Below are positions 19,294 to 29,743 of a stretch of 64,000 nt of DNA, piece by piece. Location: positions 2,667,001 through 2,731,000 of the forward strand of contig NZ_CP092109.1 of assembly GCF_025263685.1 (NCBI RefSeq), given 5' to 3'. The translations under genes were made by a program, and so were the position numbers. Origin of the DNA: Geoalkalibacter halelectricus. Lineage in GTDB: Bacteria; Desulfobacterota; Desulfuromonadia; Desulfuromonadales; Geoalkalibacteraceae. Position 1 is the stretch's first letter. Each line of letters starts with the position of its first letter. The notes beneath the pieces are model-generated. The model saw only the letters and a program-made list of their open reading frames with translations, searched no databases and was not told where the DNA came from.

Positions 19294-19518
19294 ATGCTGA
19301 TGAATGGGTACATGCCGGCTTACGGCTGGCTTTTCTTACTGATCCTGGCACTATTTTTGGCTGGGCTTCTGGTGGTTGTTTTTCGTTGGTTGATCAAGCA
19401 GGGTGCGCCCTGGGAAAAACCATCCGAAAAGAGCGCCTTGGAAATTCTCAAGGAACGCTATGCACGCGGAGAGGTCTCGCAAGAAGAATTTGAACAGATG
19501 AAAAAGGATCTTGAGTGA
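19294..19518 (+). CDS. Small membrane protein with C-terminal SHOCT domain
   Basis: This 74-residue protein has one N-terminal membrane helix (about residues 10-32) followed by a SHOCT motif in the tail (ALEILKERYARGEVSQEEF). SHOCT is a short oligomerisation-type domain common at the C-termini of small membrane proteins. The ATG at 19294 has AAAGGAGG immediately upstream; the open frame from 19126 overlaps the DUF3047 gene and is rejected. Function unknown. Confidence 0.82.
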   Translation: MLMNGYMPAYGWLFLLILALFLAGLLVVVFRWLIKQGAPWEKPSEKSALEILKERYARGEVSQEEFEQMKKDLE

Positions 19519-19607
19519 TCTCCCTGATTTGGGGCCTGTTCCCAGAGGAGAAAGAGCTCCGTGGCCGCGGGACTCAGGGCAAGACAGAGCTTATGGCTTT
19601 TAATGCC

Positions 19608-19748
19608 TCAAGAGTTTTCTTCGGGGCAGCGAGTTTTTTTTCCCCTGCATTCCCCGGAGTCGCAGTTGCATCCGCGGTTCTTGATCAGTTTGCGTAAGAG
19701 GTAACCAAGAGCGACGACAAACGCTCCGAAAATAACCAGTTCCTGCAC
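19608..19748 (-). CDS. FeoB-associated Cys-rich membrane protein (46 residues)
   Basis: A short minus-strand ORF starts at GTG 19748 and ends at TGA 19608-19610. It encodes one membrane helix (residues 4-18, LVIFGAFVVALGYLL), a basic turn (RKLIKNR), then a Cys cluster in GCNCDSGECRGKK and a final Cys. This is the layout of the FeoB-associated Cys-rich membrane proteins found next to feoB in many anaerobes, where they may help Fe(II) handling. A weak GCGAGG ribosome site is 5 bp upstream. It is downstream of the feoAB-NikL/NikK-like genes on the same strand, beyond a hairpin at 19767-19799. The pattern match and location make it a real gene. Confidence 0.78.
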   Translation of the reverse strand: MQELVIFGAFVVALGYLLRKLIKNRGCNCDSGECRGKKTRCPEENS

Positions 19749-24225: not shown

Positions 24226-24242
24226 CTGGTATGGTTGATGCA
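24226..24242 (+). promoter_or_regulatory. Putative sigma-54 promoter for the precursor/radical SAM genes
   Basis: CTGGTATGGTTGATGCA has GG (24228-24229) and GC (24240-24241) with exactly 10 bp between them, and matches TTGC-type -12 and TGG-type -24 elements with a few mismatches. It lies about 140 bp upstream of the first start codon. The spacing is seen directly; the role is inference. Confidence 0.4.
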
Positions 24243-24379
24243 AAAAATTAGAATTGCCATGCAGGTTGTCGTCTTGGCGTATCGCATGCTGGTCCCCTGA
24301 CCTTGTCGCGGCAGAAAAGATGGGTTGGGCGGGCAGCAGTGCTTGAAGACCCTAACTTTTGTGTATCGAGGAGGAGAAG

Positions 24380-24712
24380 ATGGCCGAAAAGAAACCTTGT
24401 CTGAGACAAATGATCCGCATTCCCGTGGAATACGTCGAGATCCCGGTTGAGGCGAGCAGGGAAGACCTGGCCGCTCTCATGCAAAAGCTGATTCTCGATG
24501 AGGGTTTCCGCAAGGAATTCAACCGCAGGCCGGAGGAAATCCTGCGTCAGGCTGGAATCTGCGTTGAGGCCGAGGACTTGCGCAAAATCGGGCTGAGCCC
24601 GATCACGGCCATGGTGCGCGACCTGGTTCCCCAGCCTCAGGCGATTTCGCTGGCTATCGTCATCATCGGGGTCATCATCGGAGTCATCGCGCCGCCGAGA
24701 CCGGCGGAATAA
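24380..24712 (+). CDS. Candidate RiPP precursor (leader-like protein with hydrophobic tail)
   Basis: This 110-residue protein starts at ATG 24380 behind GAGGAGGAG. Residues 30-66 (including DEGFRKEFNRRPEEILRQAG) have the form of nitrile-hydratase-like or Franean1-type leader sequences: a D-E-x-F-R-x...P-E-x-I/L-x-x-A/Y-G pattern. The C-terminus is a Pro/Gln turn, a hydrophobic run (AISLAIVIIGVIIGVIA) and PPRPAE. It ends 16 bp before a B12-binding radical SAM gene. This suggests a ribosomal peptide precursor whose core is the hydrophobic tail. It could instead be a small membrane-anchored partner of the radical SAM enzyme; no cleavage site is evident. Confidence 0.6.
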   Translation: MAEKKPCLRQMIRIPVEYVEIPVEASREDLAALMQKLILDEGFRKEFNRRPEEILRQAGICVEAEDLRKIGLSPITAMVRDLVPQPQAISLAIVIIGVIIGVIAPPRPAE

Positions 24713-24728
24713 CCCGGTGAGAGGTTCC

Positions 24729-26171
24729 ATGCGCATCGCCATGGCCTGTGTGCCCATCGTGGAGTGGTACCAGGAACGCCTGGTGCCGGCCTACATGGAC
24801 GGGTATCGCAACAATCCCCACCTGGGCCCTTATCTTTTAGCCGCCGTATTGGAACAGGCGGGGTTTGACCTGAGCCTGGTGGATCTGACCTGCGCGGAAT
24901 TTCTCGATGAAAGCGTTGCCGAGAGGTTTGCCGAGTTCGACGTCGTCCTGCTCTCGTGCAATTCGACCAACTGGCCGACGGGCCGCCTGCTGATCGACTG
25001 GCTCAAGCAAAGTTGCCCCGCTCAGGTGCTGGTTGTTGGGGGCATTCATGCCACTCTTTTCGGCCGTGAGGTCATACAGACCACCCCGGTCGACTATGTC
25101 ATCGCCGGCGAAGGGGAAAGATCGCTGCCCCTGCTGTTGGACGCGCTGCAACAGCAGGGGGGCTACCACAAGGTGCCCGGCCTGATCTGGCGACAGGCTG
25201 GCGCCCTGGTGGCCAACCCGCCGGCGCCTTTGTTGAGTTCCCGCGAGCTCGATGCCCTGCCTCTGCCTCTTTACTCCGCCATGCCCCCGGGGCGTTTCAA
25301 GACCATCGCCATCGAGTCGTCCCGCGGATGTCAGGGTAATTGTCTGTTTTGCGCTATTCCCTTTCGCAAGCATTGGCGCCCCTTGTCGGCAGGCGCCTTT
25401 GTGGACAAGGTCGAGGCTCTTCAGCCCTTCCTCGACAAGGTCGAAATGCGGCATTTCTCCGTGGTGGACGACTGTTTCACCATCGACCGGCAACGCGCCC
25501 TGGACATCGTGGAGCTGACCCGGCGGCGGGGGGTGAATTTCCAAGCCACCTACGACGCGCGCATCCGCGATTTTCTCGATGAAGAGTTGGTGGAACACCT
25601 TAGTTCCTGCTCCAGAGGCGTCCTCGTGGGTGCCGAATCCTTCCTGCCGCGCACACTCAAGCGCATCGGCAAGCCGGTGACGCCGGATGAAATCGTGCGT
25701 TGCGCCCGCATTCTCGATCGCTACGGTCTGGCCGAGGACACCATTTTTTCGTTTATTATCGGCTTTCCCTGGGAAACCAAGCGCGAGGTGCAGGAAAACT
25801 TCAGCCGCATTGTCGATCTCGCGCTGACCTTTGGCGTCCGAATCTTTCTTCAATGGCATACCCTGACCCCGGGATCGGCCTTGTGGCACCGGCTGCTGCG
25901 GCAGGGCAAGGTCGCGGTGGCCGATCTTGATACGGTCGGATTTCTCCTCGGCGAAAAATGGTTTTATGTCTCCTCCTCCCTGTCCGTGGAAGACCGCCTC
26001 GACATCAGTGATATGGTCACCAGTGTGCAAAAGGTCATGGCGTTTACCAAGCCCTATGGCAGCAAGCGGGGAGAGATCTCCTTCATCATCCCGCCGTATC
26101 TGCTCAACAACAAGCAACTGACTGAGAAGTGGCGCGAAAGCTACTTCGCTCCCGAGCAGCCTCAAGCCTGA
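24729..26171 (+). CDS. B12-binding-domain radical SAM protein
   Basis: This 480-residue enzyme has an N-terminal cobalamin-binding-type Rossmann domain (VVLLSCNSTN, VLVVGGIHATLF, YVIAGEGERSLPLLL) without the DxHxxG motif. A radical SAM core follows, with the cluster cysteines in CQGNCLFC (C201, C205, C208), DDCFTIDRQRA, and LVGAESFLPRTLKRIGKPVT. This domain order is that of the class B methylases and related tailoring enzymes (MiaB-unrelated, P-methylase/BchE-like). The ATG at 24729 sits behind GAGAGG. It is 16 bp downstream of the precursor-like gene. Substrate unknown; a peptide-modifying role is inferred from context only. Confidence 0.85.
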   Translation: MRIAMACVPIVEWYQERLVPAYMDGYRNNPHLGPYLLAAVLEQAGFDLSLVDLTCAEFLDESVAERFAEFDVVLLSCNSTNWPTGRLLIDWLKQSCPAQVLVVGGIHATLFGREVIQTTPVDYVIAGEGERSLPLLLDALQQQGGYHKVPGLIWRQAGALVANPPAPLLSSRELDALPLPLYSAMPPGRFKTIAIESSRGCQGNCLFCAIPFRKHWRPLSAGAFVDKVEALQPFLDKVEMRHFSVVDDCFTIDRQRALDIVELTRRRGVNFQATYDARIRDFLDEELVEHLSSCSRGVLVGAESFLPRTLKRIGKPVTPDEIVRCARILDRYGLAEDTIFSFIIGFPWETKREVQENFSRIVDLALTFGVRIFLQWHTLTPGSALWHRLLRQGKVAVADLDTVGFLLGEKWFYVSSSLSVEDRLDISDMVTSVQKVMAFTKPYGSKRGEISFIIPPYLLNNKQLTEKWRESYFAPEQPQA

Positions 26172-26590: not shown

Positions 26591-29500
26591 ATGAATACGC
26601 TATGGCTTAGAATCGTCGATGCACACTTTCGGCCGATTCGCGGTGCCAGTGTACGGGCGCTGACGGCCGATCAAAGACCGTTTAAACTAAATTTCGAGAA
26701 TGATCGCTGGGTGGGCCGCGGGATGCCCGGCCAGCGCCTGGTGGTCGAAGTGGCGGCGCAGGGCTATGAAACCGAGACCCACAGCTTCGACTTACGCGAT
26801 GAACTGACCCAGGTGGTTGTCGGGCTGCGACAGCCGGGACAGTTCTCATACAGCCAGGGGCTCGATCGGCTTGCCTTCGTTCCGGTGGAGGAGGCGTTTC
26901 TCTTGCGCATCGGGGGCAAGAACGCGGCCGATGTCTTTGCCAAATTGGCTAAAGGGCAGAAGCTCAATTGGCGCCCGGTTTCCGACAAGGCGGGGAGTGC
27001 CTCGGACGATCTGTTCGTGCATGTCGAAGGCGATGCGGAAAAAGCTCAATCCCTGGCCAAGGAATTGAGCGCCGCCAAGCTCAACGCCGAGATTTCACGC
27101 GTGATCGGGCACGGCGAGCGGCCTGCTTTCGGGCTGAACAACGAACTGATCGTACGCTTTCGCGATGATGTGCGTCGCCCGGAGGCTGATCGGCTGGCCG
27201 CCGGGGTGGGATTGAGAATTTTGCGTGAACTTCGGCACGCCGGTAACGCCTTCGTGCTTGGGCGCGAGGGTTTTCCCTCCTACGACCTGCTCAAGGCGGC
27301 CGATGCGCTGGCACGCAGCGGCCGGGTCGTCTATGCCGAGCCCAATTTGACCTTCGCTATCGAAGCGGACCAGTACACGCCCAACGATCCCTTGTGGGAG
27401 CAGGTTCCCCATCTGCAACTGATCAGGGCCGATCATGCCTGGGATTTGCTGGACAATGTCGACGTTAATTTGCGCGGCGGGTCGCCGAATATCACCATCG
27501 GGGTCATCGACCCGCATGGAGTCGCACCCAATCATCAGGAACTGACCGCCAATTTGACCGACGGCACAAGCAAGCTGGTGGCGTCCATAAACTTCACGGC
27601 CTCGCCCATTGCCGCGCAGACGGTGGCCGGATTGGGGGGTGATCACGGAACCCAGTGCGCCGCCTCGGCGACCGCGGCCTTCGATGACAATCGGGGCATG
27701 CCGGGTGTGGCGCCCAACTGCCGCCTCATCGGTGCGCGTATCGGCGGCGTTGCCAACTCGGTATTCATGGCCGACATCTATCTGTGGGTCGGCGGTTTTC
27801 TCAACGGCTCCACGGCGGCGGGATTTCCGGCCGCGCCACCGGCGCGTCCCGCCGACGTGATTTCCAGTTCCTTCGGCGTTAATGGCATGGCCCTCTCCAA
27901 CACCATCCGCGACTGTTTCGATTTTCTCACCACTTATGGCCGCGGCGGCAGGGGGTGCGTGCTGCTTTTCTCATTGGGCAACAACGGCTACGTTGATTTC
28001 ACCAATGCCGCGGGTGGCGCTTTTCGTGCCTGGCCAACCTATCAGAAAACCCTCGGGGTGGGCTCGAGCATCAATGTCAATCCCACCAATCCGATCCCGG
28101 TCTCCTTTCACGCCGATCCCAACGGCAACACCAACAACATTGCCACCGCCGTCGACACGCGAACGCTGTTCAGCCCCTTTGGGGCGACCGCGCTGCGCAA
28201 GCCCGACCTGGTTTCCCCCTCGCATACCGCCTACAACGCCGCGGGCAATCTCATCGATCCGATTCTCTCGGCGGTGCGGGTCGGTACGGGCAACGTCGAT
28301 GGTTGCCCGGGGCCTGCCACCTGTAACGACTACGCAGTCTCCTTCGGCGGCACCAGTCATTCCACGCCGACGGTGGCGGGGGCCGTGGCCCTTATCCTCT
28401 CCGCGCGCCCCAACCTGAGCTGGGTGCAAGTACGCGACATTCTGCGCCAATCCTGCGCGCGCATCGACGCGGCCCAGGCCAATGCCATCGGCCAATGGCA
28501 GGATCTCGATGGCGATGGGCTCATCGATTACAGCCGCTGGTACGGCGCGGGGCGCCTCGATGTGGAGGCCGCGGTCGGATTGAGTCTGGATGAAACCCTG
28601 CCGCTTTCCGATGTCTACGTGCGGGAGAATCTCGCCGATACCGGCGACGTTCCCTCCGGTGGAAGCTGGTGGGCGAGCCCGGACATCTGGGTGCGCCAGG
28701 AAGCGGGGACGCCTATTCCGGCCCTGGCCTGGAACGATGCGCCGCCGCATCAGAATGCGCGGCGAGGCCAGGACAATGCGCTGTTCTGCCGGGTGCGCAA
28801 CCGGGGCACGGCGGCCGCGAGCAGCGTCTATGTGCGAGCCATGCTGACCCATTGGGCGGGCCTGGAATTCGTTTATCCGGCTGATTTCCAGCCCTCCAAC
28901 AACGTCGGTGCGCCGGTACCCAACCCCCTGGTGCCGGGTACTTACCTGATCGGCGAGGCGCGCATCGACAATCTGGGTGTGGGCGCCGACCAGATCGTGA
29001 AATTCATCTGGCCGCAGGCGCTGATTCCGCCGGCTACGGTCATGGTCGGCGGCGCCACCGTTCACTGGCATCCCTGCTTGCTGGTGGAAGCCTCTCCCCA
29101 TGACGGTCCCGAACCTATCGGAGGGCTGGCGGTGCCTGTGCAGGGCAATAACAACATCGCCCAGCGCAACATCAGCATCGTCGATGCCGCAGATGCCAAT
29201 GCCGATCTCTTCGTCGGCATGATCGCCGGTACGCGCAGCGCCTTTGGCGTGGCAACCCTGATCCTGGACGCCACTCTCCTGCGCGGGGCTACCTCCATCA
29301 GGCTGCATTTGGCTGATGAGCGGGCCATGCGGCAACTCACCGCGGGTATTCGCCAGGCGGTTGATGAACAACGTGTTCCGGTGCGAACCGGCGAAGATGG
29401 GGAACGCTGCGCGGTCATCATCGAACAGCGTACCCGGGTACGGGTCGAATGCGGTCCATGCGATACGGTGATCGAAGTGGCACCGGGGTCGCGCATCTTC

Positions 29501-29743
29501 ACCTGCGGCACGCGACCCGCGGATCCCGTCAAGGTGAATTTTGTCAAGCATCAGAATCTGGAAGCGGTCGAGTTGATCGGACTGCGCGGCCAGATCGAGA
29601 TTCCCCTACGCTTGGCGGGCAACCAGTTCGTGCCTTTGCTGGTTGCCGTCACGGGACCGGCCAACGGTGATCTGCACCTCGCGCAACGTCGCGGCGACGG
29701 AGAAATCTCCGCCGGTTATGGGATTCGCCGGACCCTTTCCTGA
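26591..29743 (+). CDS. Large subtilisin-family (S8) serine protease, no signal peptide
   Basis: This 1050-residue protease has an intact catalytic triad: D307 (GVIDPHG), H352 (GDHGTQCA) and S589 (GGTSHSTPTVAG), with oxyanion N464 in SLGNNG. Residues 1-85 look like a regulatory beta-domain (RIVDAHFRPIRGASVRAL). Residues about 180-265 resemble a fervidolysin-type prodomain (ELIVRFRDDVRRPEADRL, VVYAEPNLTF). After the catalytic domain, about 700-800 looks CARDB-like (FCRVRNRGTAAASSVYVRA), and the last 150 residues contain a Cys pair in VECGPCDTVIEV. No signal peptide or membrane anchor is seen, so it is cytoplasmic or exported atypically. GAAAGGAG precedes the ATG. It follows the precursor/radical SAM pair by 420 bp and could process that peptide, but this is unproven. 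Confidence 0.9.
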   Translation: MNTLWLRIVDAHFRPIRGASVRALTADQRPFKLNFENDRWVGRGMPGQRLVVEVAAQGYETETHSFDLRDELTQVVVGLRQPGQFSYSQGLDRLAFVPVEEAFLLRIGGKNAADVFAKLAKGQKLNWRPVSDKAGSASDDLFVHVEGDAEKAQSLAKELSAAKLNAEISRVIGHGERPAFGLNNELIVRFRDDVRRPEADRLAAGVGLRILRELRHAGNAFVLGREGFPSYDLLKAADALARSGRVVYAEPNLTFAIEADQYTPNDPLWEQVPHLQLIRADHAWDLLDNVDVNLRGGSPNITIGVIDPHGVAPNHQELTANLTDGTSKLVASINFTASPIAAQTVAGLGGDHGTQCAASATAAFDDNRGMPGVAPNCRLIGARIGGVANSVFMADIYLWVGGFLNGSTAAGFPAAPPARPADVISSSFGVNGMALSNTIRDCFDFLTTYGRGGRGCVLLFSLGNNGYVDFTNAAGGAFRAWPTYQKTLGVGSSINVNPTNPIPVSFHADPNGNTNNIATAVDTRTLFSPFGATALRKPDLVSPSHTAYNAAGNLIDPILSAVRVGTGNVDGCPGPATCNDYAVSFGGTSHSTPTVAGAVALILSARPNLSWVQVRDILRQSCARIDAAQANAIGQWQDLDGDGLIDYSRWYGAGRLDVEAAVGLSLDETLPLSDVYVRENLADTGDVPSGGSWWASPDIWVRQEAGTPIPALAWNDAPPHQNARRGQDNALFCRVRNRGTAAASSVYVRAMLTHWAGLEFVYPADFQPSNNVGAPVPNPLVPGTYLIGEARIDNLGVGADQIVKFIWPQALIPPATVMVGGATVHWHPCLLVEASPHDGPEPIGGLAVPVQGNNNIAQRNISIVDAADANADLFVGMIAGTRSAFGVATLILDATLLRGATSIRLHLADERAMRQLTAGIRQAVDEQRVPVRTGEDGERCAVIIEQRTRVRVECGPCDTVIEVAPGSRIFTCGTRPADPVKVNFVKHQNLEAVELIGLRGQIEIPLRLAGNQFVPLLVAVTGPANGDLHLAQRRGDGEISAGYGIRRTLS

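Follow-up and report, generated by a model that had tools for sequence, protein, structure and literature searches.

A candidate two-gene RiPP cassette in Geoalkalibacter halelectricus pairs a leader-like short protein with a B12-binding radical SAM enzyme that may C-methylate an aliphatic core

C-methylation of unactivated peptide carbons is hard chemistry for which few enzymes have been characterised. Among the B12-binding radical SAM (rSAM) enzymes known to perform it, PoyC methylates the beta-carbons of Val and Ile in polytheonamide and Val is methylated in bottromycin (PMC11285071), while ApyD targets a Tyr of its core peptide, again at the beta-carbon (PMC10635010). The locus described here lies in the window, the whole stretch of 64,000 nucleotides of G. 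halelectricus that was analysed, and recalls several such systems without coinciding with any of them. With the proteusin C-methylases PoyB and PoyC, which act on Val/Ile Cbeta, it shares an NHLP-type leader, an aliphatic core and a B12-rSAM; PoyC, however, carries a Cx7Cx2C motif (PMC11285071) whereas the enzyme here has CQGNCLFC (Cx3Cx2C), and PoyB and PoyC are set apart by description, not by sequence. Compared with the polytheonamide system, the window locus lacks an epimerase, an N-methylase and a protease, and its match to TIGR03793 falls far below the cut-off. ApyD (NF050148) likewise joins a B12-binding domain to an rSAM domain, acts on a ribosomal core peptide and C-methylates an unactivated carbon (PMC10635010), but its model is 645 positions long, it carries an RRE, and its target is a Tyr modified alongside P450 and MNIO partners, all of which are absent from the 480-aa enzyme and its surroundings. 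The Os1348/Franean1_4349 peptides of the NHLP clan (NF038399, PF14407) have a similar leader over 41 positions, with the precursor here scoring under the cut-off, and the Os1348 cluster encodes, in place of a B12-rSAM, a GNAT and a HEXXH protein (PMC7726476). MgmA, the MCR glutamine C-methylase (PDB 9ccb), gives both the top Foldseek E-value and the top PDB profile match for our enzyme, yet is only 21-22% identical to it and acts on an MCR glutamine, not on a dedicated peptide. We found the pair, and the enzyme branch to which it belongs, described in no curated family and in no paper within the open-access text to which the literature search was limited.

Our main reading, to which we assign a probability of roughly 0.6, is of a RiPP cassette with the minimum of two genes, whose enzyme C-methylates the aliphatic core at unactivated carbons. 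In this cassette the 110-aa protein would be the precursor, with an N-terminal NHLP-clan leader recognised by the neighbouring cobalamin-dependent rSAM enzyme, which would reductively cleave SAM at its [4Fe-4S] cluster, abstract hydrogen from an unactivated carbon of Val, Ile or Ala in the C-terminal aliphatic core, and move methyl groups from methylcobalamin to the core, leaving a C-methylated, more hydrophobic tail. We propose methylation of such a core because known cobalamin-dependent rSAM enzymes methylate Val and Ile beta-carbons; cobalamin loading, methylation as against another radical reaction, the modified sites, cleavage, export and role are what we infer, and a membrane-active or competitive peptide is our guess for that role. 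A compact enzyme with a one-gene substrate would make a convenient test case for this chemistry.

The precursor gene (positions 24380-24712, plus strand, ATG start) is preceded by a Shine-Dalgarno sequence, GGAGGA (24370-24375, plus strand; GGAGGAG ends 4 bp 5' of the ATG), and is present in one copy in the genome, a single 4.13-Mb contig. Its stop codon lies 16 bp before the ATG of the enzyme gene (24729-26171, plus strand), with a Shine-Dalgarno-like GAGAGG between them (24719-24724, plus strand), so that the arrangement of a 110-aa protein 16 bp ahead of a B12-binding rSAM enzyme, first noted in a sequence-only reading, is borne out by both open reading frames and by Pfam domains. The hydrophobic C-terminal run described in that reading is also present as AISLAIVIIGVIIGVIAPPRPAE (residues 88-110; 24641-24709, plus strand), which the precursor alignment marks as the predicted core; a leader resembling NHLP/Os1348 peptides occupies approximately residues 1-87 and includes the leader-like stretch DEGFRKEFNRRPEEILRQAG, and the leader/core border probably falls at about residue 87/88. 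The same reading's sigma-54-like promoter fared less well: the window has two copies of TTGGCN8TGC, where chance alone would give 4.9. No Rfam family was found in the window at the gathering threshold.

The proposal of a nitrile-hydratase/Franean1-type leader held in part. NHLP-clan models match the precursor significantly, with NF038399 (Os1348; NCBIfam) covering 41 positions of the leader at E 6.7e-6 (26.1 bits, cut-off 40), TIGR04509 (NHLP-related RiPP peptide) scoring 25.9 bits (E 7.7e-6, cut-off 34) and TIGR03793 (the proteusin NHLP leader) 17.7 bits (E 0.0024, cut-off 50.9), but all lie under their curated cut-offs, and the Pfam model for Franean1_4349 itself, PF14407, reaches only E 0.055 (14.2 bits, gathering score 48). 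That none of these four leader models is passed agrees with the earlier remark that the pair is not typical of a single known class, and from sequence the leader resemblance appears weak yet above chance. The leader holds no GG-type cleavage site, and two C39 peptidases encoded elsewhere in the genome are not assigned to the precursor for that reason. The AlphaFold2 (AF2) model of the precursor (pLDDT 53) is too poor for a fold search.

Conservation carries the argument that these two genes belong together. A peptide-pattern search of 84,980 genomes yielded three close relatives of the enzyme, in a Chlorobiota MAG (L030, 49% identity), Chlorobium ferrooxidans (L031, 49%) and Syntrophaceae UBA6078 (L032, 35%), and each has a precursor orthologue at its side: 102 aa directly upstream of the rSAM gene in L030 (7680-7988, rSAM from 8001) and L031 (7669-7977), and 111 aa directly downstream in L032 (9471-9806). 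These orthologues score 117-167 bits against a precursor profile in which all of them are themselves included. Together with the window protein they have in common leader residues V23, L33, L37, D40, R44, F47, L55 and G59 and, at the end of the alignment, P108 and E110; the PAE C-terminus of the window precursor recurs in L030 and L031, and the L032 precursor matches the leader model TIGR04351. The precursor is not a chance ORF, since its orthologues adjoin an orthologous enzyme in other phyla, and a leader-like short gene kept beside its modifying enzyme across distant genomes is the general mark of a RiPP pair. Comparison of these sequences thus strongly supports a RiPP precursor/maturase pairing, as the first reading of the pair as a peptide-modifying system had suggested.

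The pair is also rare, recurring here and there among unrelated anaerobes. Of 395 genomes searched in the window's phylum, one gave a strong precursor match and one matched the enzyme profile, an absence made slightly weaker by the fact that the phylum-wide rSAM searches scored the 4-5 best candidates per genome; in the Chlorobium class the precursor was matched in 2 of 98 genomes. In the genomes nearest to that of the window, three of them congeneric, rSAM proteins reach no more than 32% identity. Every precursor orthologue found (a profile score above 100 bits) adjoined the orthologous rSAM gene, and no such orthologue occurred without the enzyme among the 395 phylum and 98 Chlorobium-class genomes, which is the co-occurrence that the earlier reading had called for. 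Plasmids yielded nothing close to the enzyme's family, every match being below 60% identity, and viral contigs held distant rSAM proteins only. Rare, patchy and always together where found, the pair is distributed as expected for a horizontally moving cassette. Both Chlorobiota pairs sit beside defence genes, a type I R-M HsdM gene in L030 (5887-7434) and an AbiEii toxin gene with a DUF6088 protein in L031 (5664-7051).

No exporter, peptidase or RRE gene was recognised adjoining the pair in the window, L030, L031 or L032. Farther downstream in the window and on the same strand lies an S8 subtilase of 1050 aa (26591-29743, plus strand; subtilase domain E 1.4e-25) that carries a fervidolysin-type prodomain and shows no clear signal peptide, and its nearness and domains could make it a third gene that removes the leader from the modified precursor. 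We consider this improbable: the 419-bp gap before the protease gene holds a sigma-70-like promoter of its own (TTGACA/CATAGT), which makes it probably a separate unit, and no protease was recognised beside the pair in the L030-L032 stretches listed.

The enzyme has an N-terminal B12-binding domain (PF02310, E 1.6e-14) followed by an rSAM barrel (PF04055, E 5.6e-14), both over the Pfam cut-off, with the CxxxCxxC cluster motif CQGNCLFC at residues 201-208 (25329-25352, plus strand). This is the architecture of cobalamin-dependent rSAM enzymes, and sequence and model together suggest that it is of this type, with predicted cobalamin binding. An AF2 model built from 15 relatives (mean pLDDT 90.3) matches cobalamin-dependent rSAM methylases, with MgmA (best E-value, 1.6e-21), TsrM, OxsB, CysS, AprD4 and TokK as the top Foldseek hits and VIA-align Z scores of 28.2 for AprD4, 27.9 for OxsB, 27.5 for MgmA, 27.1 for CysS and 26.2 for TsrM. 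We take AprD4 to be a fold match without cobalamin dependence, unlike MgmA, TsrM, OxsB, CysS and TokK. As AprD4, which heads the VIA-align list, is a dehydratase of the same fold, methylation is unproven from fold alone.

This bears on a second reading, which keeps the two genes as a RiPP pair and has the enzyme alter the aliphatic core by a radical reaction other than methylation, for example epimerisation, C-C cross-linking or desaturation. Besides the equally close fold of AprD4, it draws on the ring contraction, C-C cyclisation and C-S bond formation carried out by other cobalamin-dependent rSAM enzymes (PMC10635010) and on the Val/Ile epimerisation known from proteusins and epipeptides (PMC8326336). 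The PoyD epimerase model TIGR04517, however, matches only L032 and a Methanothrix locus (L043), and weakly (E 0.02-0.04); the core has no Tyr, Trp or Cys for the usual cross-links; and the curated family closest to the enzyme, ApyD, is a peptide C-methylase. We therefore regard another reaction as rather unlikely, though still to be taken seriously, and favour C-methylation. The ApyD model NF050148 gives the top NCBIfam score (E 8e-32, 110 bits against an equivalog cut-off of 750), and TIGR03975, for RiPP maturation rSAM C-methyltransferases, scores 66 bits against a subfamily cut-off of 282.

The enzyme also matches the BchE (E 5e-26) and HpnJ (E 1e-19) models, and like these it could act on a metabolite (a lipid, hopanoid or porphyrin), with the short protein serving as a small membrane-anchored partner or regulator. 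The hydrophobic run of the window precursor, which AF2 models as a helix at low confidence, is 17 residues long, nearly the length of a membrane helix, and could be a membrane anchor, but in L030-L032 it spans only some 11-13 residues, short for a membrane helix. RiPP-leader models match the short protein, moreover, and the sister enzymes described below adjoin several kinds of RiPP precursor, so that we give a metabolite substrate very little weight against the precursor reading.

Scores against the enzyme profile fall into steps: 805-889 bits for the window family, from which the profile was built, 220-287 for a second group, and under 182 thereafter. An N-[ST]-x-N-W-like motif is common to the second group; in the window enzyme it reads NSTNW (residues 78-82 of the B12-binding domain; 24960-24974, plus strand) with a W82 that is invariant in the enzyme alignment. 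In a maximum-likelihood tree of 73 B12-rSAM proteins the 23 sequences of this NSxNW branch, of which the motif is a marker, group together at 100/99 support, as do the window enzyme and L030-L032 within the tree (100/99).

Peptides with aliphatic tails recur beside these enzymes. The window precursor ends in AISLAIVIIGVIIGVIAPP and its orthologues in AAVAVIAAVIVLS (L030) and TMVVVGVAVATTVGE (L032); near other branch members we find AVSVVVGPVTLVIASIGA (L033), AGIVIVIVVGVAVTGV (L035), GGGFIVVVAVLAAGIVVVAGAGVAV (L036), GGGVKIVVVGGVVVVGAGAVAVAVVGA behind a Nif11-like leader (L037), and ALVLVNVNVLVNVNANVNANANANANVNANV (L040 and L041, with a similar tail in L100). A short ORF with a Val/Ile/Ala/Gly-rich or Asn/Val-rich tail lies near the enzyme at 12 of 19 branch loci and at 3 of 22 other B12-rSAM loci (Fisher p = 0.0014, approximate and a guide rather than a formal test, because L040, L041 and L100 are close relatives and both counts contain misassignments). 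Among the 12, the window hit (19515-19697) is an unrelated ORF and the L054 hit is probably spurious, and the mechanical criterion dropped the window precursor and both L033 peptides, most likely through its filter on antisense-ORF overlap. L100 and L101 were added by a further search, made once the pattern had been noticed; L101 has no such peptide, and it was with L100 already in view that Asn and Thr were admitted to the composition filter behind these counts. No aliphatic-tailed peptide was found near L034, L038, L042 or L101, and the Methanothrix branch members adjoin a Cys-ended peptide, not an aliphatic one. Leaders across the branch loci are NHLP-like, Nif11-like or of GG type; as leaders differ while cores are alike, the branch enzyme most simply acts on the core, and the sequences point to an aliphatic core as the shared substrate feature of the branch. 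Tying enzyme phylogeny to aliphatic cores across leader types in this way provides a definite criterion by which such peptides can be sought. More tentatively, and with the balance somewhat against it, the NSxNW branch may constitute a leader-agnostic RiPP class, scattered in anaerobic bacteria and perhaps Methanothrix, in which aliphatic or Asn/Val-repeat cores are multiply C-methylated into polytheonamide-like membrane-active peptides, the window pair being its smallest form, without exporter or peptidase.

Individual branch loci differ in content. L037 (3118-5739) encodes three peptides with Nif11-like leaders and Val/Gly-rich tails downstream of the B12-rSAM gene. A Firmicutes cluster (L040:6331-12607, L041:6459-12607, L100:1781-10358) encodes, besides a B12-rSAM, another rSAM and a DUF1648 (SdpI-type) protein, a precursor of 54-55 aa whose C-terminal Val/Asn/Ala repeats (VNVNVLVNANANVNANAN...) recall polytheonamide cores; L100 also has ABC transporter genes. 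In Bacteroidales L044, a 60-aa precursor (547-729) with repeated TIPAIGVG-type units (five copies of TIPAIGVG) after a GG site lies near a SPASM rSAM and a B12-rSAM. At L038 (5908-9236) and L054 (6061-9341) the branch B12-rSAM stands by a pair of ABC transporter genes and a DUF1648-type protein (its Pfam match weak in L038), which hints at a bacteriocin with immunity; no precursor was recognised at either. A Spirochaetales MAG has its branch member flanked by very large ORFs resembling NRPS/PKS modules (L042:4570-14812), so the branch may not be confined to RiPPs. The Methanothrix/Methanosaeta loci L043 (252-3772) and L039 (4159-9299) encode an Os1348-type NHLP peptide ending in GC(L/I)SPCM, which in L043 passes NF038399 (56 bits). 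The B12-rSAM genes of the branch that adjoin this peptide number two in L043 and three in L039, and these are likely archaeal RiPP loci.

Weaker matches to the precursor profile (L075, L076 and L082-L084, of which L075, L076, L082 and L083 were inspected) were set aside as other NHLP-type peptides. In the Chlorobium class, L082 and L084 (some 6 kb apart in one genome) and L083 hold pairs of NHLP-like small proteins of 86-129 aa; one NHLP-like member of L082 ends in a Cys-rich tail, and L083 also encodes a SPASM-like and a nitroreductase-like protein. Outside the NSxNW branch, a Burkholderia stagnalis plasmid (L106:918-7710) carries genes for an insulinase protein, three radical SAM proteins and a 55-aa hypothetical protein, which looks like another RiPP cluster.
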